Part shown: positions 12,826 to 25,041 of the stretch, in pieces
How positions within the stretch are numbered: the stretch's first letter is position 1
Layout: each line of letters opens with the position of its first letter
Source of the DNA: Nitrospirota bacterium
Lineage (GTDB): Bacteria > Nitrospirota > Thermodesulfovibrionia > Thermodesulfovibrionales > Dissulfurispiraceae
Length of the DNA: 41,853 nt
Assembly: GCA_004321915.1 (NCBI GenBank)
Contig: SCQE01000060.1
Span: forward strand, 1 to 41,853
Reading direction: 5' to 3'
Notes under the pieces: model-generated
The model's input: only the letters and a program-made list of their open reading frames with translations
What the model was told of the DNA's origin: nothing
Database searches by the model: none
Program-made: the position numbers and the translations under genes

Positions 12826-14784
12826 TCATCTTCTTTTCATGGTCGCCTCAATCTGCTCGATACGTTTATTGACTTCATATTCAGTCATTTTCACATTTAT
12901 CTGATCAAGCGCTGCCGCTTCTTTGAAAGAGCCTATTGCGTCATTAAGTTTACCTTCTTTTTCATAATCTATTCCCTGTCTGATATACGCCTCAACAAGA
13001 AAGCCCCGTGCCTCTTTAAAGTTGCTGTTCAGCTTCATAACAATTTTAAACTTGGTTATAGCTTCCTCATATCTTCCCGACTCCATATATGCAACGCCGA
13101 GATTGTTATGCGTAAGGTAAAAAACCGGATTAATCTTAAGCGCCTCGTTAAGCTCATCTATAGCCTTATCGATTTTCCCTTTTCTAATATAGGCAACGCT
13201 TAGATTGTTCCTTATCACGTTATTGAACGGATATATCTTAAGCGCGGTCTTATAGGCCTCTATCGCCTCTTCGTAATTCTCCATCTTCTGATAAATTATG
13301 CCGAGCGCGTTGTAGACATGCATCGAATAAGGGCTGACCCGAGCTGCATTTGCCTTGAGCTGATATATCGCGTCATCACGCCTCCCGATCTCTTCATAAG
13401 CCCACGCAAGGCTGTGGTAAACATCGTAAGAATTCTTGTAATTCTCCTCCCCCCGCTCCTTAAGCCGATCAAAGGCAAACTCCCATAGGGTTTGTGAGTC
13501 CTTCCATACAAGTGCCTGTTTTACAGTTAGAAACGACATGGGAACAAAAAGAAGAATAAAAAATGCAGCCCCGCCTGCGGCAACAATCCTTTTGTTAACT
13601 GACTGAAGCCTTCTTAGTCCGGAAACATAAAGCAACGCTGCCCCTAAGCCCAGACTGACGCTCGGCAGATACATGTACCTGTCGGCCATGGATGCTATCC
13701 CGACCTTGATAAAACCGAGGACAGGGAGAAGCATAATAAAATAATAAAGCCATATTGAAGACCAAATCTTATTGTTCCTTATCACAAGCAGCGCGGCAAA
13801 AAAAACTACTCCAACTAATCCCAAACCGTATTTAATCGAGAAAAAGGAGGCTTCGTCAGGGAACGGATAAAGCGGGCTCAATGATAAAGGCAGCAACATA
13901 TTTACAAAATAATCGAGCAAGGCCCTGAAACCTACCAGCAGCCTTGCGAACAATGGAAACTCCGAAGCAGATTTTACGGCGTAATTGTAGCTCTGGGCCA
14001 AAACCGTAGTGACGGCCAAATCCAGCGAGATCAAAAAAAACGGTACCTTCTCAAGAAACACTCTTTTTGCAGAGAATCTATTGAACCTCTCAAAAGGGTA
14101 CCAGTCGAGTATGCAGAGAACCACAGGGAGCGTTACCGCCATAGGCTTGCTCAATAGAGCCATAAAGAAGAAGCCGAGCGTAAGCAGATAATATTTATTT
14201 GTCAGCCACAGCTTTATCGCTACCTGTGGTTCCTGTTTCGCTTTATACGCATACTGCAGATATGCCAACATGCTGAGCAGAAAAAAGAAGGCGCACAATA
14301 CATCTTTTCTCTCCGACACCCATACAACGGATTCAACATGGATGGGGTGTAGTCCGAAAAACAGCCCTGAAAAAAGGCCTGCGGCCAAAATATATTTCTC
14401 AGACAATCCGGCATTTCCATTTGCAGCAATCCTTTTGCGATGCTCGATCAGATTAACTCCGAGCAGGGCTACAAGCGCAGCATTTAGGCTGTGCCAGAAG
14501 ATGCTCGTGAAATGGTGTCCTGCAGGGTTTAGCCCCCAGAGGGCATAATCAACAGCGTGCGAAATCCATGTAAGGGGATGCCAATTTGAAGAATGGAAAT
14601 ACAAAAATGCCCACTCAAAGAAATCCAAATTGAGAGACATTATATTGGGGTTCTGGTAAACATAGGCATGGTCGTCCCAATTAACAAATTTGTTGCTTAC
14701 AGCCGGCGAATATACCACCAGCGTGGCGACAAATACAAAAAGAAGTACCGGCAATTTATTTTTATTGTTTAAGAAAGAATTCAT
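12826..14784 (-). CDS. TMTC-like GT-C membrane protein with TPR repeats (copy 3)
   Basis: Large membrane protein of 652 residues. Residues 1-430 hold about 9-11 hydrophobic segments with a GT-C-like layout: an acidic pair early in the first loop (NKFVNWDDHAYVY), then the family blocks NWHPLTWISHAVDYALWGLN, GLHPIHVESVVWVSERKD and SMADRYMYLPS. Residues 450-650 are TPR repeats (for example NNLSVAYIRKGKIDKAIDEL). The arrangement is that of TMTC proteins, whose animal members O-mannosylate proteins using a polyprenyl-phosphate sugar; bacterial relatives are mostly unassigned. It is the last of three tandem paralogues joined by 4-bp overlaps. A protein- or pilin-glycosylating role is inference. Confidence 0.85.
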   Translation of the reverse strand: MNSFLNNKNKLPVLLFVFVATLVVYSPAVSNKFVNWDDHAYVYQNPNIMSLNLDFFEWAFLYFHSSNWHPLTWISHAVDYALWGLNPAGHHFTSIFWHSLNAALVALLGVNLIEHRKRIAANGNAGLSEKYILAAGLFSGLFFGLHPIHVESVVWVSERKDVLCAFFFLLSMLAYLQYAYKAKQEPQVAIKLWLTNKYYLLTLGFFFMALLSKPMAVTLPVVLCILDWYPFERFNRFSAKRVFLEKVPFFLISLDLAVTTVLAQSYNYAVKSASEFPLFARLLVGFRALLDYFVNMLLPLSLSPLYPFPDEASFFSIKYGLGLVGVVFFAALLVIRNNKIWSSIWLYYFIMLLPVLGFIKVGIASMADRYMYLPSVSLGLGAALLYVSGLRRLQSVNKRIVAAGGAAFFILLFVPMSFLTVKQALVWKDSQTLWEFAFDRLKERGEENYKNSYDVYHSLAWAYEEIGRRDDAIYQLKANAARVSPYSMHVYNALGIIYQKMENYEEAIEAYKTALKIYPFNNVIRNNLSVAYIRKGKIDKAIDELNEALKINPVFYLTHNNLGVAYMESGRYEEAITKFKIVMKLNSNFKEARGFLVEAYIRQGIDYEKEGKLNDAIGSFKEAAALDQINVKMTEYEVNKRIEQIEATMKRR

Positions 14785-16694
14785 AACAGCTTCTCCAATC
14801 GTACAATCTTTTCCCTAATCCCTTTGAATTGCGGGTTTACTTCAAAAACAATCCTGAACTCGTTTAGGGCCTCATTAAATCTCTTCTGCCTCTCATATAG
14901 ATCGCCGAGATTATTGTGTGCTACAGCATATTTATTCTGCCTGCTTATAATATACCGGTACTCTTTTATCGCATCATCGAGCCGTCCCTGCTTGGCAAGC
15001 AAACCGGCAATTGCGAAATGAGGCCATACCAAATCTTCCTTGAGTTTAATAAGGGACCTATACGCTTCTATAGCCTCGTCAAACTTCTGCTGTTTAATAT
15101 AAACATTAGAGAGCCCCGTAAGAAGATTAACATTATTGCCGGCATTCGTACTAATATTCAAGGCATCCGTATATGTCCTTGCAGCTTCATTTAATTGTCC
15201 TGTAAGCGTAAAAGCTTCCCCAAGATAAATATAAACATCAATAAATCTTGGGTTCCTCCGTAACGTCTCAGAGAAATATTCGATGGCCTCCTGCAGCCTG
15301 CCCTGCTCTTTATACGCCTTGCCTAAAAAAAGGTAAACAAGAGAGGAATTTCTGTAATAATCTTTCCTCTCATCAGTCTTGGATATAACATACACCGCCC
15401 GCTGCCAAAGAGAGATAGAATCGCGCCAGACACCTATCTGAGCCTTCGTCAGTACCGCCAGCGCTAATATGCATATTATGGCTGATGAAGCAAGGCCGGC
15501 CCTGAAAATTGCGGATGAGCCCTTGCTAAGCTTATGGTTAATCCTTTGCGCAAAAAAAACAGCTCCGAAAGAAAAACCAAAAAACAGAGCCGCGCCCGGC
15601 AAATAAACATATCTGTCGGCCATAGATTGCGAGCCTACCTTAATAATTCCGATGACAGGCAGCAATGAGATTATGTAACAAAGCCAGACAGCCAATGCTG
15701 TCCGCCTTCCCTCTTTGGCAAGCCAGACAAGGACCGCTGAAACCAGTGACGCCAATATAAAAGATGGAACAAAAGAAACCCCGTCTATATCGTCGGGGTG
15801 CAGATACATTGGGCTGAGGTTTTGCGGCAAAAAGATGTTTCTTATATACGCAAGCATAGAGTTAAAACCGACAAACAACCTGTACATTAAGGGATAGTTC
15901 CCGACGCTCAAACTCGGCTGCGCAGCGATTGTCGCAAAAGACAGATAAAATGATATTAAGACAAAGGGTATTTTTTCATAAAACACCCTTTTTGTTTCTC
16001 CTTTCTTAAACCTGTTGAAAGGGTGCCAGTCTATAACCAAAAGCAGGGCAGGCAGCGTAACGGCCATCGCCTTGCTGAAAACAGCCATAACAAAAAATCC
16101 GAAACTCTTAAGATAGTTGCGGTCCGACAACCACGAAGGATTACATGCAGACTTGGCTCCGGAGCACGAATCAGCATAGCTGACATAGTAAATAATGCTC
16201 AGGATAAAAAACAGCCCGCAAAGAAGGTCTTTTCTCTCAGACACCCACGCAACAGACTCGACATGAATCGGGTGAATGCCAAATAAAACCCCTGAAACAA
16301 AAGCAGCAGTCATTATAGCGTTGTCTGTCAAAAGGATGTATTCAGAGGCCATGCCCCTGTAACACCTCAAAAGTTTTAGCCCCAGTAGAAATACAAGCAC
16401 AGAATTCAGGCTGTGTATAAAAATGCCGGTAAGATGGTGGCCATAGGGGTTTAGCCCCCACAAAGCATAGTCTATCGCATGTGAAATCCATGTAACAGGA
16501 TGCCAGTTGAAAGCATAGAACTCCCCGAAGGCCCATTTGATAAACCGAATGTCAAGCGAAGTAATATGAGGGTTCTCATAAATATACTCGTGGTCGTCCC
16601 ATGACACAAAATCGTTTTCGAGTGCAGGCAGATAAGCAACAACCGCAACAATAAAAATCCCGAATACAGCAATAGTTGTATCTTTTTTCTTCAT
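14781..16694 (-). CDS. TMTC-like GT-C membrane protein with TPR repeats (copy 2)
   Basis: Middle paralogue, 637 residues, with the same architecture: membrane domain with ENDFVSWDDHEYIYENPHI, NWHPVTWISHAIDYALWGLN, GIHPIHVESVAWVSERKD and SMADRYVYLPG, followed by about five TPR units (residues about 455-630; for example AVAHNNLGDLYERQKRFNEAL). The WDD acidic pair is kept, so the putative active site is intact. ATGA overlaps join it to both sister genes, which implies co-translation and possibly stable co-assembly. The three copies differ throughout and are not recent identical duplicates, so they may use different acceptors or donors. Confidence 0.85.
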   Translation of the reverse strand: MKKKDTTIAVFGIFIVAVVAYLPALENDFVSWDDHEYIYENPHITSLDIRFIKWAFGEFYAFNWHPVTWISHAIDYALWGLNPYGHHLTGIFIHSLNSVLVFLLGLKLLRCYRGMASEYILLTDNAIMTAAFVSGVLFGIHPIHVESVAWVSERKDLLCGLFFILSIIYYVSYADSCSGAKSACNPSWLSDRNYLKSFGFFVMAVFSKAMAVTLPALLLVIDWHPFNRFKKGETKRVFYEKIPFVLISFYLSFATIAAQPSLSVGNYPLMYRLFVGFNSMLAYIRNIFLPQNLSPMYLHPDDIDGVSFVPSFILASLVSAVLVWLAKEGRRTALAVWLCYIISLLPVIGIIKVGSQSMADRYVYLPGAALFFGFSFGAVFFAQRINHKLSKGSSAIFRAGLASSAIICILALAVLTKAQIGVWRDSISLWQRAVYVISKTDERKDYYRNSSLVYLFLGKAYKEQGRLQEAIEYFSETLRRNPRFIDVYIYLGEAFTLTGQLNEAARTYTDALNISTNAGNNVNLLTGLSNVYIKQQKFDEAIEAYRSLIKLKEDLVWPHFAIAGLLAKQGRLDDAIKEYRYIISRQNKYAVAHNNLGDLYERQKRFNEALNEFRIVFEVNPQFKGIREKIVRLEKLL

Positions 16695-18370
16695 GGGTTT
16701 TTCATTCTCTTCTCAGCAATCCGCATAACCTCTTCTGCCTCTGCTGGCCTGCCAGCCCGTCTAAGGGCAAGGCTTAATTTGACTACGGTCAGTGGAACAT
16801 CCTCGCTTTGGGGGTTTATCTCTATAATCTTTTCAAACTCACGCGCAGCATCCTCAGGCCTTTTGACAGAAATATAGATATCCCCTAAGAACATTCTGGC
16901 GTTAGTCTCATTAGGTTCTATAGCCAATGCTGATTGAAGCTCGGCAATAGCCATATCAGGCATGCCGTTTAGGTGGTAGGCTGAGGCCAAACCTATATGT
17001 GCCCTTGCAGACCTTCTGTAATAATCATCGCGCTCCGTCGACGTTAACCTTATCGTGTGCGACCATAAAGATATAGAGTCGCTCCATACGCCAATCTGCT
17101 TTACGGTTAATGAAACCAGCGCCATGCCAACCGCAACAATAACACACCCCGCAGCCAGCCTCAACAATGCTTTATTTTTATTTTCTTTTAAGCCCCTTTC
17201 ATAAAACATCACGCCTGCAGTTGTGACAAATAAAAACAGACTTATACTCGGCAGATATGTGTATCTGTCTGCCATAGCCTGCCCGCCTATCTTCACAAAA
17301 CCAAGCACAGGCAGAAGCGTCACAAGATAATAAAACCATACTACAAAAAAAGCTTTATATTTTTTTGCGGAAGATAAAAGCCAGACTGTAAGCATTCCAA
17401 CAGCAAGAAGCGAACTCCAATATAAAAAAAACTCAAAGGAAACATTCTTTGGTATCGAATAAAAATTTATAAGTCTTGCCGGGAAAATCATCTTTTGGAG
17501 ATAAACAAAGACCGAATCCACGCCTATCACGACTCTCGACGAGATCGGGAATGAATCAACAGATTTCACAGAGCCTCCCCACATCTGCGCTAAAAGGGCA
17601 GTGATCGTCATGCTTAGAGAGAAGATCAGGAAGGGTATTTTCTCACGCAAAGACAATCTGTTTTTGAGACGCTGAAAAGGATACCAATCCAACAAGAATA
17701 ACACTGCTGGGAGCGTTATTGCCATTGGCTTGCTAAACAAAGCGCATACAAATAAGAAAAGGCTCGACAGATACATTCTATCCATAAGTAAGTTTTTCTT
17801 TATGCCTTCTCCAATTAGCGCTTGGACATATCCCGCATAGCAAATAAGACTAAACAAATAGAAAAATGCGCACAACAGATCTTTTCTCTCTGATATCCAT
17901 GCTGCAGATTCTACATGCAGGGGATGAACCCCAAACAAAAAACCGGTAAAGCAGGCGGCATATATTACTCCTTTAGAGGATATTATCCCCCCTGCTGCCG
18001 AGCGATGAACACTCAAAAACTTTATACAGAGAACAGAAACCAGAGACGCATTTGCGCCATGCAGCAATATGCTTGTAAAGTGATGCCCGGCCGGGTTCAG
18101 CCCCCATAGCGCATAATCAATAGCGTGTGAAACCCAAGCGAACGGATGCCAGTTGGAAGAGTAGAACTCAAAAAATGCCCATCTAAAAAATTTAGAGTCT
18201 ATGGAAAAGATATTCGAATTCTTTGTCACATAGACATAATCGTCCCAGTTTACAAAGTCATTCCTGAGAGCAGGAAGATAAACCAGAATTGTAAGGATCC
18301 CGACAAAAACAGGGTAGGTATAATAATGCTTCCTGAAAACCTCTTCTTCAAGGCTGTCAACAAACCGCAT
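16691..18370 (-). CDS. TMTC-like GT-C membrane protein with TPR repeats (copy 1)
   Basis: First of three tandem paralogues and the shortest (559 residues), because its C-terminal TPR part is reduced to about two or three repeats (RSARAHIGLASAYHLNGM onward). The membrane domain keeps every family block: RNDFVNWDDYVYVTKNSNI, NWHPFAWVSHAIDYALWGLN, GVHPLHVESAAWISERKD and AMADRYTYLPS. It starts with ATG two bases after the GT2 stop. As for its sisters, the polyprenyl-phosphate-sugar-dependent GT-C assignment rests on the TMTC family; which protein it modifies, if any, is unknown. Confidence 0.85.
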   Translation of the reverse strand: MRFVDSLEEEVFRKHYYTYPVFVGILTILVYLPALRNDFVNWDDYVYVTKNSNIFSIDSKFFRWAFFEFYSSNWHPFAWVSHAIDYALWGLNPAGHHFTSILLHGANASLVSVLCIKFLSVHRSAAGGIISSKGVIYAACFTGFLFGVHPLHVESAAWISERKDLLCAFFYLFSLICYAGYVQALIGEGIKKNLLMDRMYLSSLFLFVCALFSKPMAITLPAVLFLLDWYPFQRLKNRLSLREKIPFLIFSLSMTITALLAQMWGGSVKSVDSFPISSRVVIGVDSVFVYLQKMIFPARLINFYSIPKNVSFEFFLYWSSLLAVGMLTVWLLSSAKKYKAFFVVWFYYLVTLLPVLGFVKIGGQAMADRYTYLPSISLFLFVTTAGVMFYERGLKENKNKALLRLAAGCVIVAVGMALVSLTVKQIGVWSDSISLWSHTIRLTSTERDDYYRRSARAHIGLASAYHLNGMPDMAIAELQSALAIEPNETNARMFLGDIYISVKRPEDAAREFEKIIEINPQSEDVPLTVVKLSLALRRAGRPAEAEEVMRIAEKRMKNP

Positions 18371-18372
18371 AG

Positions 18373-19122
18373 TCAGCGCTTGTTTTCTCTAAAGATCAGA
18401 AACTCCTTCAGCCCGGCCTTTTGGAGAACATACTTCATCGTTACGGCAAGAACCCCCAATCCGTATTTGATGCTCCGCCGCAGGTTTATTGAAGAGGCTT
18501 CAGGGAAATATCTCGTGGGACAGCTTATCTCTCCTATCCTGTAACCCTTGTAAACAGCCTGAACCAGCATTTCATTGTCGAATATAAAGTCGTCGGAATT
18601 TGCGCTTGTGGTTATGGTTTCGAGCACCTCTCGGGTGAAGGCGCGAAGCCCTGTATGATATTCCGAAAGTTTAACACCGAGAACCATATTCTGAAACAAA
18701 GTCAGAAACCTGTTTGCGATGTACTTGTAAAGCGGCATGCCGCCTTTCAACGACTCTCCTCCGAGTATCCTTGAACCTAAAACAATATCGTAATGGCCAG
18801 ATGCAAGCATAAAAGCCATCGATGTTACAAGCCTTGGAGAGTATTGGTAATCAGGATGCAGCATAACCACTATGTCGCCCCCATGCCTCAAAGCCTCGGC
18901 ATAACAGGTCTTCTGGTTTGCCCCGTACCCTTTATTCTTCTCATGAACGATAGTCTTTATTCCGAGCTTAGCGGCAACAGCAGCGGTATTGTCCCATGAG
19001 GCGTCATCAACGAGAATGACCTCATCCACATACTCGTGATGAAGTTCCTCATAGGTTTGAATTAGCGTCTTTTCGGCATTATAAGCCGGCATTACAACTA
19101 TAAGCTTCTTGTTCAATATCAT
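18373..19122 (-). CDS. GT2-family glycosyltransferase, polyprenyl-phosphate type
   Basis: GT-A fold enzyme of 249 residues. Motifs: [25 protein letters not shown] for the nucleotide, [24 protein letters not shown] in place of the usual DxD metal site, and LGSRILGG, then [19 protein letters not shown]. This pattern fits the DPG/DPM-synthase-like GT2 group that makes polyprenyl-phosphate sugars or adds a sugar on the cytoplasmic face. The ATG overlaps the STT3 stop as ATGA, with AAGG seven bases before it. It lies between the oligosaccharyltransferase and the three GT-C proteins, so it may supply their lipid-linked donor. Confidence 0.87.
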
Positions 19123-21179
19123 CTATTAACCTTGTAAACGACCAGCGAAGGGAACCTATCCATCACAAGTTCGAATTTTTCAAAGTTCTCTTTCAAAGAG
19201 TACATTCTATGAAATATCGTATGTTCTGCCTGCATGTCAACGACCATAAAATAAAGGATGCCGTCTTTATAAATAAGCTCCAATATTTTATTTGAAGACG
19301 ATGCTTTATTAAAACCCACCTCCCTACGCAAATTGTTATCCCGGTCTATAAAGATTATTTCGCGGTAAACACTGCGTACATCGAGCTTGTCTGCAGGAGA
19401 TGATATTCTAAGGTTCTTAATGTCAAAGACAAATACGGAACGGCAATCAAAATCGCCGCTATTCTGCTCTATCTCAACGCAACGCATAGGCGCCGACATA
19501 AGGGGAAAGGTTCCATTATCAGACTTTGTCTCATCAAACCCGAGTTTCTGAATGAAAGCATAGTCGGTCATTGCCCTGTCGAGCATTACATATACAGGCC
19601 GAGCGGGGGGATGCGGGTATGACATCGCCTGCTCATGAAGAGACTTCAGTGTTCCGAAATCTTTGGGGTAGTCGCTCCAGCGGGTGTTTGTAACAAAAGC
19701 TATGGATCTTCTCGCCGATTCGGGGCCTGAAGTCATAAGCGACTTTGCAATAAAATAAAGCTTTACAGGGTTGTAATTGGCTCCGTCGACATAGGTTCCC
19801 CTCTCAGCAAGGTACTCCACCGCAAAACCCCAATCCCACCAAGTCCAGATTAAAGCGTCTTTCTCTGTAATTGCTTTTAGACTGCCCAAGCCTTTGAACA
19901 TTTCCTGGGAGACAAATGGCTGAGGACTGTAATTAAGCCTCTGAGGCGGAAACGTGAGAAAAAGAGTGAATACCACACCCGAAAGCATTATGATTTCACC
20001 GCTGCGTTTGTATCTTTCAGAAATAAAATTGAACATGTGATATACAAGATACCCTATACCCATCCCCATAAATGGTGCAAGGTACATTATATATCTGTTG
20101 CCCGACTTGAAGGCCGACAGGCCTATAATGATGAACGGCAGCATTATAACGGTGTGGCGGAAGGAGGATAGAAACAAAATACCAAACCCCACAAGGGACG
20201 CAAAAGCCGTTATCCGGTTGTCGGTCGTAAACGCCACAAATTGTTCGGGTGTGATTGGTTGAAATTCGGTTATTGTCGAGAAGATACTCTCAGGAAGAAG
20301 GTTTACTGTTTGTTTCATGAAAACAGCGGTCGAGTATTCTTTTATATTCCAGAGTATCGCATAGAAAGACGGGTTTATGGCTATAAGAAAAAAAAGGCTC
20401 TTCAAAATAATATCCCTGACAGGGTGTCTGAAAAATACAAGACCGACAGCCAGTGAAAAAAGAAAGAAGGCTGCAAAGATATAAACATCGTACCACCATA
20501 AAAACAACCTGTAGAGGATTGCTGCGGCGATTAAATAAACATAAGACCTAAATACACTTTCTTTTTCCCTGACCGCATAAGTTATAAAAAGCGCAATAGA
20601 GAAAATAAAAAACAGTATCAGACAATCCGTATCAAAATATCCGGGAGGGGTCCTTATAGCGTATATAAAGTTAAACATCCCCAAAAAAGCCCCACCTGCA
20701 AACAAATACATAGATTTATAAGAATCGGCGAAAGTTCTTATCCACATATAAAATGGCACAAGATATAAAAGCGACAGCACAGGGGGAAGATAGACAAAAA
20801 GCCTCTCTATACGAACACCAAACCAGTCGGACAACCAGACAGCCATTAGACTTAAAAGGTATGGGGTTTCGAAGTTGGTCCTGAAATCAGGAGCGTTTGA
20901 AAGGTAGTCTATAGAGGTATATGTGCTTGACTGTATCTCTTTAGCGAAGCGTGCGTACCTAAAAGCGTCATAGGTCGAGAGTACATTCTCCGCATCAGAG
21001 AAGTTTGGAATATCTTTTAGTTTTATGCCGAGAGAAAAGAGTACTACAAGAAAAATGAGTATTATCTCTCTAAAACACCTTCTAATAAAAATGGCTAAAC
21101 TCCATAAAAAACAAATAAAAACTATGTTCCGGTGCAGCCAGAAACATTGCCTGTAGCGCTGACCGCGCAGCCAGAACAA
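19119..21179 (-). CDS. STT3/PglB/AglB-type oligosaccharyltransferase
   Basis: Membrane protein of the STT3 family, which transfers a lipid-linked oligosaccharide en bloc to asparagine on the periplasmic side. Numbering from 21179: the catalytic acidic residue of the first external loop fits [10 protein letters not shown] (Asp71), the second motif is GYFDTDC (Asp183/Asp185, like GYYDTD of PglB), the TIxE motif is STITEFQPI (Glu305), an arginine lies in [11 protein letters not shown], and the acceptor-binding WWD motif is TWWDWGF (447-451). About 12 hydrophobic segments precede the soluble tail. The start is unclear: the only legal in-frame start is a TTG at 21179 inside the pilin gene, while an ATG at 21103-21105 is one base out of frame. 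It follows three pilin genes, the likely acceptors. Confidence 0.88.
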
Positions 21180-21469
21180 CCTGCAGGCTGAGCAGTAATG
21201 GAAGCTGCGCCATCAGAGCTGACACTACAGGTTGCTCCGCCGGCCGAATTGGTTGCCGCATTACCGGTATTGGCATATTCAGCAGCAGCCATACTGCATG
21301 AGCTTGCCGCATCGTTGGCACAGCGAGATTCCTTAGCTTTTTTGGTATAGTTGACGTACTGGGGAATAGCTATTGCTGCCAATATAGCGATAATCGCGAC
21401 TACAATCAGGAGCTCTACGAGGGTAAAACCCTTTTCCTCACTCTGCCTTATATTTATCGCTCTTATCAA
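21122..21469 (-). CDS. Type IV pilin-like protein (copy 1, nearest STT3)
   Basis: Short type IV pilin. A 14-residue leader ends in EEKG and prepilin peptidase would cut before [18 protein letters not shown]; Glu5 of the mature helix is present. The mature protein is about 101 residues with four to six cysteines and a Ser/Thr/Ala-rich tail containing GCSGC. Two N-X-S/T sequons occur: NYT at mature residues 26-28 and NVS near the C-terminus, the latter only in this copy. The start is TTG at 21469, supported by AGGAG seven bases upstream; an ATG just before it runs at once into TGA. It lies 37 bases after copy 2 and about 17 bases before an ATG near the STT3 start. Confidence 0.9.
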
Positions 21470-21865: not shown

Positions 21866-21899
21866 AAAAAAATAAGGGGGATGGATTCCATCCCCCCTT
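21866..21899 (-). terminator. Intrinsic terminator after the first pilin gene
   Basis: On the minus strand a GC-rich hairpin (GGGGGATGG, loop AAT, CCATCCCCC) is followed by TT-A-TTTTTTT. It begins about 20 bases after the pilin copy 3 stop and lies before copy 2. It should end most transcripts and leave the downstream pilins and glycosylation genes to read-through. Confidence 0.9.
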
Positions 21900-21919: not shown

Positions 21920-22264
21920 TTACGTTCCTGCGCAGGCTGATACTGTGCCTGTTGCGCTGATTGCGCAGCCGGTACAACCCGCAGGCTGTGTCTGTACAGA
22001 CATAACTCCATCAGAAGTAATTCTGCATTCTGACGCACCTGCAGAGCCTGTTGCCGCGTTGCCCGTGTTCGCATACTGTGCAGCTGCCACGCTGCATGCG
22101 CTCGATACGTCGTTAGAGCATTTTGCCTCTTTCGACTTCTTTGTGTAGTTGGCGTACTGCGGGATTGCTATAGCCGCGAGTATAGCGATAATCGCGACAA
22201 CGATCAGCAGTTCGACCAGTGTGAAGCCCTTCTGGTTCCTCTTTGTGTGGATTGCCTTCAACAT
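21920..22264 (-). CDS. Type IV pilin, promoter-proximal major copy (copy 3, PilA-like)
   Basis: First gene after the regulated promoter and probably the major pilin. From the ATG at 22264 (GGAGGAT about nine bases upstream) the leader is [13 protein letters not shown], 13 residues, followed by [18 protein letters not shown] with Glu5 for assembly. A longer frame to 22303 exists but would give an unusual 26-residue leader and lacks a ribosome site. The mature protein is about 101 residues, small for PilA. Conserved features are NYT at mature 26-28, the [13 protein letters not shown] block, and cysteines including GCTGC. A strong terminator follows, as is common for highly expressed pilins. Confidence 0.93.
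21924..21997. repeat. 74-bp direct repeat in pilin copy 3 (partner 21511-21584)
   Basis: Second copy of the pilin-tail repeat; identical base for base to the one in copy 2. It could serve as a substrate for recombination that deletes or swaps pilin tails. Confidence 0.9.
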
Positions 22265-22347
22265 CTTTTTAATCCTCCCTGATGAATTATTTCTTTCTGC
22301 CAAGGGCAGAATACTTAAGCAACTTTCTACAACCGAGACTGATGATG

Positions 22348-22368
22348 ATTATAGCATGTTCCATGCCA
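22348..22368 (-). promoter_or_regulatory. Pilin promoter: sigma54-like -24/-12 overlapping an extended -10
   Basis: Minus strand 22368 to 22354 reads TGGCATGGAACATGC. Compared with TGGCAC-N5-TTGC it has the invariant GG and GC at the correct spacing and two mismatches. The next bases complete TGCTATAAT, a perfect extended -10 for sigma70. Either reading places the transcription start near 22341-22342, giving a leader of about 78 bases. The adjacent PilR-type activator and palindromic upstream sites favour sigma54, but the overlap leaves dual use open. Confidence 0.65.
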
Positions 22369-22423
22369 GAAGAAAAGGTTTAAACTATGCAGATAAAACA
22401 ATGATATTATACACAAGCGCAAA

Positions 22424-22466
22424 TGTCATTGACAATATTTGTCAGCTTTGTTGACATTTTTTGTCA
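22424..22466. promoter_or_regulatory. Upstream activating sites: two TGACA-N5-TGTCA palindromes
   Basis: Perfect inverted pairs at 22430-22444 and 22452-22466, with centres 22 bp apart (two helical turns). An extra TGTCA at 22424 forms a second close pair with the first TGACA. Relative to the predicted pilin start the centres are at about -95 and -117, the usual range for an NtrC-family dimer pair. TGTC half-sites match what is known for PilR of Pseudomonas. They lie just upstream of, or within, the start region of the kinase gene, so autoregulation is possible. Confidence 0.7.
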
Positions 22467-22470
22467 CTCT

Positions 22471-23688
22471 ATGCAAAATTCAACCATGTACCTGTCTTAC
22501 CTGTTCAATTACTACAGACTGGGCCGCTTTCTTTTCGCTTTGGCCTTGTTCCTCGCGTTTCAGGTCGCAGGACTCGCATCAGGCATGCCGCTGTTCATGT
22601 ATGCGCTCGGGCTCTACACGCTCATCGCGTTTTTGCGCTTCATGGCTACAGCGGAAAAGACAGGCTATTTCGATTTTCTGCTTGACATCGCCTTTGTGTC
22701 CGCCATTGTATACTTGAGCTTTGGGATATACACATACCTTTCTATGCTATATCTCTTTCCTATATTTTTCTCATCTATTCTGATACGGACAAAAAAAATA
22801 TTCATCTTCCCCATGTTCGCGGCTCTCCTATACATGATTATTTATATGATAAGCGCATCAACCGTCGATAAAGAGGGGGCGCTGAACCTCTCTCTCCATC
22901 TCCTTTCGTTCTCGCTTATAGCCTTCGCAGGGGATAACCTAAAGGAACGGATGGAGAAACAGGAAAGGTACATAAGACTGCTTGAAGAAGAGAAGATAAG
23001 GATGCAGGGATATGAACGCCTCTACCGCGTCAGCGCCGACCTTGCGCATGAACTCAGAAACCCGCTCGCCTCCATCTCTGCCGCAGTGCAGTTTCTGAAA
23101 GAGGGCAAAAACACCTCCGACTATACCGAGATGCTCGATTATGAAACAAAACGCATCACAAACCTTGTGAATGACTTTTTGATCTTTTCAAGGCCCTCAG
23201 ACGCTGCGAAAGAGAAGGTCAGCCTCACCGAACTGCTCACTACGCTCGCAAAAAACCAGCGCATAGACAAAAAGATATCCCTCGACATACAAAAAGATAT
23301 TTCTGTGACCGCAAACAGAACCTTCATTGAGTCGGCAATAAACAACATACTCAAAAATGCCTTTGAGGCGGCACAAAGCACGGTAAGCGTCTCTCTTAAA
23401 GCAGGCGAGCACTCAGAACTCCTTGACGCCATCAGAGACCTTTATTCCGAAAGGTCGCTGGATCGCTTCGGAAGCTGGACAATGGTCGAGATCGAGGATG
23501 ACGGTGAAGGGATTGACAATGAGATGAAGGATAAGATATTCGAGCCCTTTTTCACTACCAAGAATCAGGGCACCGGCCTCGGGCTCGCCATATCCTACCG
23601 CATAATAAACAGCATAGGCGGCAGGATAATAGTGGACAGGTCGGCAATGGGCGGACTTAAGTTCAGCATTATACTCCCGCCCGAATAA
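22471..23688 (+). CDS. PilS-like sensor histidine kinase
   Basis: Membrane sensor kinase that probably controls the pilin promoter with the response regulator encoded 21 bases downstream. About six hydrophobic segments fill the first 155 residues; a short coiled linker then runs directly into the HisKA domain, where His193 in SADLAHELRNPL is the phospho-acceptor. The ATPase domain shows ESAINNILKNAFEA (N box), IEDDGEGID and GTGLGLAISYRI. PilS proteins usually have a PAS domain between membrane part and HisKA; it is absent here and the protein is correspondingly short. The start is uncertain: ATG at 22471, 22486 (MYLSYLF) or 22423 all lack a good ribosome site; the first of these lies just past the palindromes. 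Confidence 0.87.
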   Translation: MQNSTMYLSYLFNYYRLGRFLFALALFLAFQVAGLASGMPLFMYALGLYTLIAFLRFMATAEKTGYFDFLLDIAFVSAIVYLSFGIYTYLSMLYLFPIFFSSILIRTKKIFIFPMFAALLYMIIYMISASTVDKEGALNLSLHLLSFSLIAFAGDNLKERMEKQERYIRLLEEEKIRMQGYERLYRVSADLAHELRNPLASISAAVQFLKEGKNTSDYTEMLDYETKRITNLVNDFLIFSRPSDAAKEKVSLTELLTTLAKNQRIDKKISLDIQKDISVTANRTFIESAINNILKNAFEAAQSTVSVSLKAGEHSELLDAIRDLYSERSLDRFGSWTMVEIEDDGEGIDNEMKDKIFEPFFTTKNQGTGLGLAISYRIINSIGGRIIVDRSAMGGLKFSIILPPE

Positions 23689-23709: not shown

Positions 23710-25041
23710 ATGCGAGCCCTTATACTGGATGACGAAGCAAATATAAGAAAAGTACTAAAGACCTTGCTTGCAGAATCAGGCTTCAAAGCCCATGAGGCGG
23801 CCAACATTCAGGAGGCGCACGAACTCATAGCCGGCCATTTCTTCGACCTTGCATTTATGGACATGCGCCTGCCTGACGGCTCAGGGCTTGATACGCTCAA
23901 AGAGATAAAAGCCTCAAACCCCGAAACAAAGGTGCTTGTAATCACAGCCTTTGCCTCCACAGAAACTGCGATAGAGGCTATGAAGGCAGGAGCGTACGAC
24001 TATGTAATTAAACCGTTCAATATCGATGAGATAAGGGTCGTAATAAAGAACATAAAAGAAACCATTCAGCTGCATCAAAGAATCCGGCTTTTAGAAACTT
24101 ACACGGACGGATTTGAAGGCATCGTGGGTAAATCCGAGGCCATGAAAAAAGTCTATATGTTGATAGAAAAAATAGCCCCTTTCGATACGAGCGTTCTCAT
24201 CTTCGGAGAGAGCGGTACAGGCAAGGAGCTTGTTTCACGCGCCATTCACAACCGCAGCCTTCGTTCCGAACAGCCTTTTATCACCATAAACTGCGCCAGT
24301 CTTCCGGCTGAGCTCTTAGAAAGCGAGTTGTTCGGATATACCAAAGGCTCTTTTACCGGAGCCTACACCTCAAAGAGAGGCCTAATTGATGAGGCCAACA
24401 ACGGAACCCTTTTTCTTGATGAGATAGGTGAGATGCCGCTTTCGCTTCAGGCAAAGCTCTTAAGGTTCTTAGAGGATAAAAAGGTCCGGCCAATAGGCGG
24501 CAGCAGCGAGATAGATGTCGATGTCAGAATTATCGCGGCATCCAACAAAGATCTCCGAAACGAAGGCATATTCAGGGGAGACCTTTATTTCAGACTTTCA
24601 ACCTTTGAAATAAGTCTGCCCACGCTCGATGACAGAAAAGAGGACATTCCTCTGCTCGTAGAGCACTTTGTAAAAGCGCTTTCGAAGAAATTCCAGAAGA
24701 CCATAAAAACAATAGATCCGGTCTTGATAGATTTTCTCACAAATCAAAAGCTGAGAGGGAATGTCAGAGAGCTGAAAAACCTTATAGAAAGAGAAATTAT
24801 CCTGTCCGAAGAGGGCATCCTCAGACTGACACATTATCAACCGCCGCAAAAAAACGAACCTTCATTAACCGAAATACCCGACAACGGCTTTGATATTATC
24901 GAATACATGGCTAAGATTGAACAGACGCTCTTTTCTCAAGCGCTACAAAAAGCAAACGGTGTAAAGACGAAAGCCGCGGAATTGCTCGGACTCTCCTTCA
25001 GGGAATTCAGGTACAGGCTTTCAAAACACGGAAAGAAGTGA
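23710..25041 (+). CDS. PilR-like sigma54-dependent response regulator
   Basis: NtrC-class activator of 443 residues. Receiver domain with the acidic pocket DDE and phospho-acceptor Asp51 in FMDMRLPDGSG; AAA+ domain with Walker A GESGTGKE, the sigma54-contacting loop GSFTGA (a Ser variant of GAFTGA), Walker B TLFLDEIGEMP and an arginine-rich sensor region; Fis-type helix-turn-helix at the C-terminus (KTKAAELLGLSFREFRYRL). The start ATG has AGGAGG five bases upstream. It forms a two-component pair with the preceding kinase and most likely binds the TGACA/TGTCA sites between the kinase and pilin genes. A named pilR is reasonable by position, not proven. Confidence 0.92.
   Translation: MRALILDDEANIRKVLKTLLAESGFKAHEAANIQEAHELIAGHFFDLAFMDMRLPDGSGLDTLKEIKASNPETKVLVITAFASTETAIEAMKAGAYDYVIKPFNIDEIRVVIKNIKETIQLHQRIRLLETYTDGFEGIVGKSEAMKKVYMLIEKIAPFDTSVLIFGESGTGKELVSRAIHNRSLRSEQPFITINCASLPAELLESELFGYTKGSFTGAYTSKRGLIDEANNGTLFLDEIGEMPLSLQAKLLRFLEDKKVRPIGGSSEIDVDVRIIAASNKDLRNEGIFRGDLYFRLSTFEISLPTLDDRKEDIPLLVEHFVKALSKKFQKTIKTIDPVLIDFLTNQKLRGNVRELKNLIEREIILSEEGILRLTHYQPPQKNEPSLTEIPDNGFDIIEYMAKIEQTLFSQALQKANGVKTKAAELLGLSFREFRYRLSKHGKK

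Follow-up and report, generated by a model that had tools for sequence, protein, structure and literature searches.

A putative PilR/sigma54 control region shared by divergent pilin and pilSR genes in a Nitrospirota bacterium

Described PilS-PilR systems and the layout of the locus

Control of type IV pilin transcription by PilS-PilR and sigma54 is established in Pseudomonas (PMC6058289), in Geobacter (PMC2725144) and, via Npa, in commensal Neisseria (PMC6528607). In Pseudomonas aeruginosa, where the kinase and the regulator are of the same types as those discussed here, PilR works together with sigma54 on the pilA promoter and affects a divergent gene in the same region, pilB (PMC6058289); the PilR sites, as the work of Jin et al. 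(1994) is cited in PMC6058289, comprise TGT-N11-AGA and GTCT-type elements, which are related to the TGTCA half-site that is the subject of this analysis. Geobacter sulfurreducens likewise possesses an RpoN-dependent pilA promoter under PilR, with pilR adjoining pilA (PMC2725144), and a survey of Geobacter PilR sites (Gene 2010, as cited in PMC6058289) proposed 54 loci. In commensal Neisseria, the two-component activator system Npa/Nps works with RpoN at pilE, where the activator binds upstream and gives rise to sigma54 transcription of the pilin, and bending by IHF is required (PMC6528607).

The locus analyzed here, located in a stretch of 41,853 nucleotides (hereinafter the window, which is one contig of a 3.6 Mb Nitrospirota genome), belongs to this known kind of pilin control but differs from the described cases in its architecture. 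As opposed to P. aeruginosa, there is a clean double palindrome with a fixed spacing of 22 bp, and the divergent genes are pilSR themselves; as opposed to G. sulfurreducens, where pilA is downstream of pilR, the pilins diverge from pilSR. What is added to the known picture is the fixed two-turn double palindrome that recurs in several phyla and the way in which it merges here with the predicted promoter of pilSR. A broader precedent is enteric NtrC at glnA-ntrBC, where two adjacent palindromes form the enhancer and the activator also acts on the sigma70 promoter of its own genes, whereas the half-site, the regulator and the target are all different from those in the window. No publication dealing with PilR in Nitrospirota pili turned up in a search of the literature.

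The original prediction held that two perfect TGACA-N5-TGTCA palindromes with centers 22 bp apart stand ahead of a -24/-12-like element with correct GG/GC spacing, and this layout is borne out (Table 1), including the positions of the palindrome centers at -95 and -117 relative to the predicted start. The element, which is located upstream of a pilin gene, retains the GG-N10-GC spacing and deviates from the consensus at a single position, with ATGC in place of TTGC. The "pilin start" at 22342 stands as the predicted transcription start but not as the start codon, given that the ATG of the first pilin is at 22264. The palindromes carry TGTC-type half-sites in the range of about 80-150 bp before the start that is characteristic of upstream activator sites, and they are conserved in relatives; an extra half-site, TGTCA at 22424, was dropped because it is not. 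The divergent genes had been expected to encode a matching kinase and a sigma54 activator, and profile searches agree (HisKA and HATPase_c in the former, a receiver, Sigma54_activat and HTH_8 in the latter), so the two constitute a linked PilS/PilR pair. Among the NCBIfam profiles, no named PilR or PilS equivalog scored above the cut-off in this pair, and the match of PilS to the six-helix membrane domain 6TM_PilS (PF25323; residues 7-157) reached 24.5 bits and thus stayed under the cut-off of 27 bits. The closest relative with a name that this PilR has comes from a Nitrospirae metagenome bin (JAFGXL010000015, 63% identity). The start of pilS is probably the ATG at 22486, and the ATGs upstream of it are disfavored as alternatives since the N-terminal MYLS encoded at 22486 is conserved in relatives.

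Table 1. Features of the pilin-pilSR region (window coordinates)
Feature	Position	Strand	Details
Third pilin, 115 aa as listed	21122-21469	-	Gene list and profile searches
Second pilin, 112 aa	21507-21845	-	Gene list and profile searches
Intrinsic terminator-like hairpin with T-rich tail, between pilins 1 and 2	21874-21898	-	-19.9 kcal/mol, z -2.7
First type IV pilin, 114 aa	21920-22264	-	Prepilin motif; Pfam N_methyl 1e-11; start codon ATG 22264
Predicted pilin leader, about 78 nt	22264-22342	-	RBS GGGAGGA 22279->22273
Predicted pilin transcription start	22342	-	Deduced from the sigma54 element, 12 bp downstream of the -12 GC
Sigma54 -24/-12 element TGGCATGGAACATGCT	22353-22368 (read 22368->22353)	-	11/12 defined positions of TGGCAYRNNNNTTGCW
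Pilin-side putative PilR palindrome TGACAATATTTGTCA	22430-22444		TGACA-N5-TGTCA, N5 = ATATT; center 22437, at about -95 relative to the predicted start of pilin transcription
Predicted pilSR sigma70-type promoter	22451-22479	+	-35 TTGACA 22451-22456, 17-bp spacer, -10 CAAAAT 22474-22479
pilS-side putative PilR palindrome TGACATTTTTTGTCA	22452-22466		TGACA-N5-TGTCA, N5 = TTTTT; center 22459, about -117; includes the pilSR -35 box
pilS, histidine kinase	22486-23688	+	HisKA, HATPase_c; conserved MYLS start
pilR, NtrC-family response regulator	23710-25041	+	Receiver, AAA+ sigma54 activator, Fis-type HTH, helix LSFREFRYRL

Conservation of the palindromes and of the predicted pilSR promoter

Homologous pilS loci were collected within the same Nitrospirota-like family, 25 in total, and oriented alike. 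In 18 of these, a TGACA-N5-[TC]GTCA palindrome is present just upstream of pilS; on the pilin side, 14 of the 18 contain another palindrome, TGAC-N7-GTCA, which is degenerate in the other four. The spacing between the two is 22-24 bp in 12 loci and 32 or 35 bp in two, and in relatives with an adjacent pilin, a sigma54 element matching at 10-11 of the 12 positions comes next. The pilin-side palindrome retains its aligned position and is more degenerate in sequence in relatives, and the flanks between and around the palindromes and promoter elements drift among the 18. The invariance of TGACA and GTCA in all 18 aligned loci is partly a matter of construction because the alignment was anchored on that very pattern, and the evidence is accordingly limited to the count of 18 out of 25 and to the flanking positions. 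Furthermore, the compared genomes are mostly metagenome assemblies, and conservation inside a single family is not independent evidence for each of them. The 37-bp double site, with two mismatches at most, occurs once each in 10 of the 31 family genomes, always at pilSR except for G025, where it is at pilA, apart from pilSR; relaxing the search to TGAC-N7-GTCA pairs brings the number to 15 of 31, mainly by adding the same locus.

The -35 box of a predicted pilSR promoter, which the original prediction overlooked, lies inside the pilS-side palindrome. The T that precedes the palindrome and yields TTGACA is found in 17 of the 18 relatives, and in the hexamer exactly 17 bp further on, the T, A, A and T of TAnAnT are conserved in 16, 17, 17 and 18 of the 18 loci, respectively, with mostly variable bases in the spacer. 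Conservation of TTGACA-N17-TAnAnT at the palindrome indicates that the -35 region of a sigma70-type promoter of pilSR carries the putative PilR site, that is, the regulator site overlaps the regulator's own promoter as in autoregulated operons, with TAnAnT present in most of the 18 loci. The pilS ATG, usually that of MYLS, is conserved 5-10 nt past the -10 hexamer (17 of 18 loci), so that the expected 5' end of the pilSR transcript falls on the start codon or close by and the pilS mRNA would be nearly leaderless. Given that the palindrome holds the -35 box, bound PilR should also limit or tune pilSR transcription; we infer that the sign of this effect is negative, which amounts to the prediction that in this Nitrospirota family, PilR would restrict its own synthesis. 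In the genus of the window, the -10 hexamer is weak (CAAAAT, AGAAAT, compared to TACACT in relatives), which makes autoregulation less certain there, and it is not obligatory, considering that pilSR lacks the palindromes when apart from pilA (G025, as well as G029 and G003, in which pilA was not located).

Occurrence of the double site across genomes

Across 230 genomes of the class, a search for exact half-sites that left the gap free recovered 10 sites, compared to none for the control, eight of which are at pilSR, one at the pilins of another family (L136) and one in an unrelated place (L135). The double site of L136, in a genome from a different family of the order (G130), has a 20-bp spacing and is located upstream of pilins, with the sigma54 element TGGCATAAAATATGCT. 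Double sites at pilin-linked loci of the named set had been detected in Rokubacteria (L037) and Acidobacteriota (L072) before the respective classes were scanned blindly. The blind scans yielded 8 sites, 6 of these beside pilins, in the class of the Acidobacteriota genome G240 (193 genomes), 9 sites with 8 beside pilins in the class of the Deltaproteobacteria (Desulfuromonadia-like) genome G235 (146 genomes), and 4 sites with one beside a pilin in the class of the Rokubacteria genome G230 (95 genomes), where "beside a pilin" means that a GFTLxEL-like prepilin motif is no more than about 400 bp away. Most of the pilin-adjoining sites in these three classes come with a sigma54 element, and three pilin-side sites (L151, L159 and L160) lack a strict sigma54 match in between; in the Desulfuromonadia-like genomes, the double site is again located at pilins that have pilR as a neighbor. 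Altogether, the four scans at no more than two mismatches (465 genomes from four clades) produced 31 sites compared to 2 for the reversed control, with 25 of the 31 at pilin or pilSR genes, or 24 of 30 when the window itself is discounted. The pattern matches L135, L153, L154, L164 and L166-L168 were rejected as pilin sites because they are not at pilins.

The expectation that the motif is precise enough to predict regulon members is vindicated across genomes, where it points to pilin promoters in other phyla; within the genome of the window, no further member came to light. The genome-wide search for the motif returned exactly one pair, the one at the pilins and pilSR, along with five other perfect single palindromes that are not next to pilus genes. 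Most of these five fall within unrelated genes or in the gaps between such genes. For none of the five is there a plausibly positioned sigma54 element, and we take them as chance occurrences. Judging from the motif, the PilR regulon looks narrow, with about one double site per genome, as against the 54 loci proposed in the Geobacter survey. A precise DNA signature of this kind for PilR makes type IV pilin promoters findable by sequence alone in poorly studied phyla, and it reaches the e-pilin-like genes of Desulfuromonadia-like genomes.

Alternative explanations and a possible mechanism

So could the palindromes be explained without PilR or without the pilins? One alternative, namely that an AT-rich inverted repeat arose here by chance or that the motif is merely a terminator-like hairpin, draws on the weak terminator-like call that overlaps 22440-22456 and on the roughly chance frequency of single palindromes in the genome: there are 7 perfect ones against 3.7 expected from composition and 2 for the reversed control pattern, so that singles are close to background. 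The pair is a different matter. From its composition, the window in its entirety should contain about 0.04 perfect palindromes, and among 200,000 simulated intergenic regions, 106 contained one palindrome and none contained two; chance origin of the double palindrome is excluded. Together with the persistence of the motif at the same position in 18 relatives despite the drifting flanks and with the excess over the control in the four scans, this refutes the alternative on statistical grounds already, and we give it virtually no credence. Another alternative is that the palindromes are bound by some other NtrC-type activator rather than by the adjacent PilR, considering that the genome encodes about 30 such related activators and that Fis-type HTH domains commonly recognize palindromes of such a size. 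The PilRs that adjoin double sites in other clades have in common the C-terminal recognition helix [ST]FRxxRY[RK]L, and among the 26 activators of the window's genome with a readable C-terminus, the FRxxRYR-type helix is found only in this PilR. The pairing of helix and site is correlative, yet it spans phyla, and pilR is adjacent to the site and co-conserved in the family; on these grounds, binding by a different activator appears very unlikely.

The remaining alternative accepts PilR as the binding protein but holds that the palindromes serve mainly the autoregulation of pilSR, with the effect on the pilins being secondary. The pilS-side palindrome is indeed more regular than its pilin-side counterpart, and its position matches that of the -35 box. 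Moreover, in four genomes where inserted genes separate pilA from pilSR (G026, G030, G006 and G022), the double site on the pilSR side persists: three of them have two perfect palindromes, and in G022 one palindrome is degenerate. In G025, however, pilSR lacks the double site, which instead accompanies pilA and the sigma54 element of that gene (L129); where genes are inserted, pilA possesses palindromes or half-sites of its own near its sigma54 element (L126:397 and L128:2133, weaker in L125 and L127); and the blind search in three other clades finds the site at pilins, mostly accompanied by a sigma54 element. These observations suggest that the site serves pilA first and, where it is shared, probably pilSR too, which renders a primary role in pilSR autoregulation very unlikely. 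The inserted genes themselves (L125-L128, in two genera) are, by appearance, Uma2-like and/or nucleotidyltransferase plus HEPN-like ones.

Thus, we consider it highly probable that 22353-22486 is a bidirectional control region that combines PilR/sigma54 activation of the pilins with tuning of pilSR by PilR. At the level of sequence, this reading is backed by the palindromes, the sigma54 element, the conservation of the layout, the cross-phylum association with pilins, the helix, and the -35/-10 overlap in relatives; of these, the original notion of a PilR-type enhancer and a sigma54 promoter that would drive the pilins draws on the footprints, the blind scans across phyla and the match between helix and site. 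Under this scenario, PilS, a membrane kinase, would phosphorylate PilR, and dimers of the latter would bind both palindromes side by side on one face of the DNA, 22 bp being about two helical turns. The bound PilR would then oligomerize via its AAA+ domains and, through DNA looping, remodel the sigma54-RNA polymerase waiting at the -24/-12 element, with the ensuing activation of leftward transcription of the pilin genes from about 22342. PilR on the pilS-side palindrome would, at the same time, limit or tune transcription of pilSR, the first nucleotide of which presumably falls on the pilS start codon or right beside it. A bolder generalization, which we advance tentatively and rate somewhat below an even chance, is that the FRxxRY[RK]L helix and the palindrome pair make up a PilR recognition code kept in at least four phyla, and that in this Nitrospirota family, the pair is fused to the -35 box of a nearly leaderless pilSR promoter, so that one binding event would both activate the pilins and throttle the sensor pair.

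Two other aspects of the pilin transcript merit mention. The predicted leader includes an inverted repeat, TTCTGCC-CTT-GGCAGAA (22295-22311, minus strand), the stem of which is preserved in the sister genome G001 (L006). Further downstream, the strong terminator-like hairpin after the first pilin gene implies that this pilin should exceed pilins 2 and 3 in amount. Beyond the pilins, also on the minus strand, the window encodes an oligosaccharyltransferase of the STT3/PglB type (19119-21179) and a family 2 glycosyltransferase (18373-19122), together with three large membrane proteins that resemble one another and carry TPR repeats at the C-terminus (12826-18370); this gene set (12826-21179) is possibly involved in glycosylation of the pilins or the cell surface.
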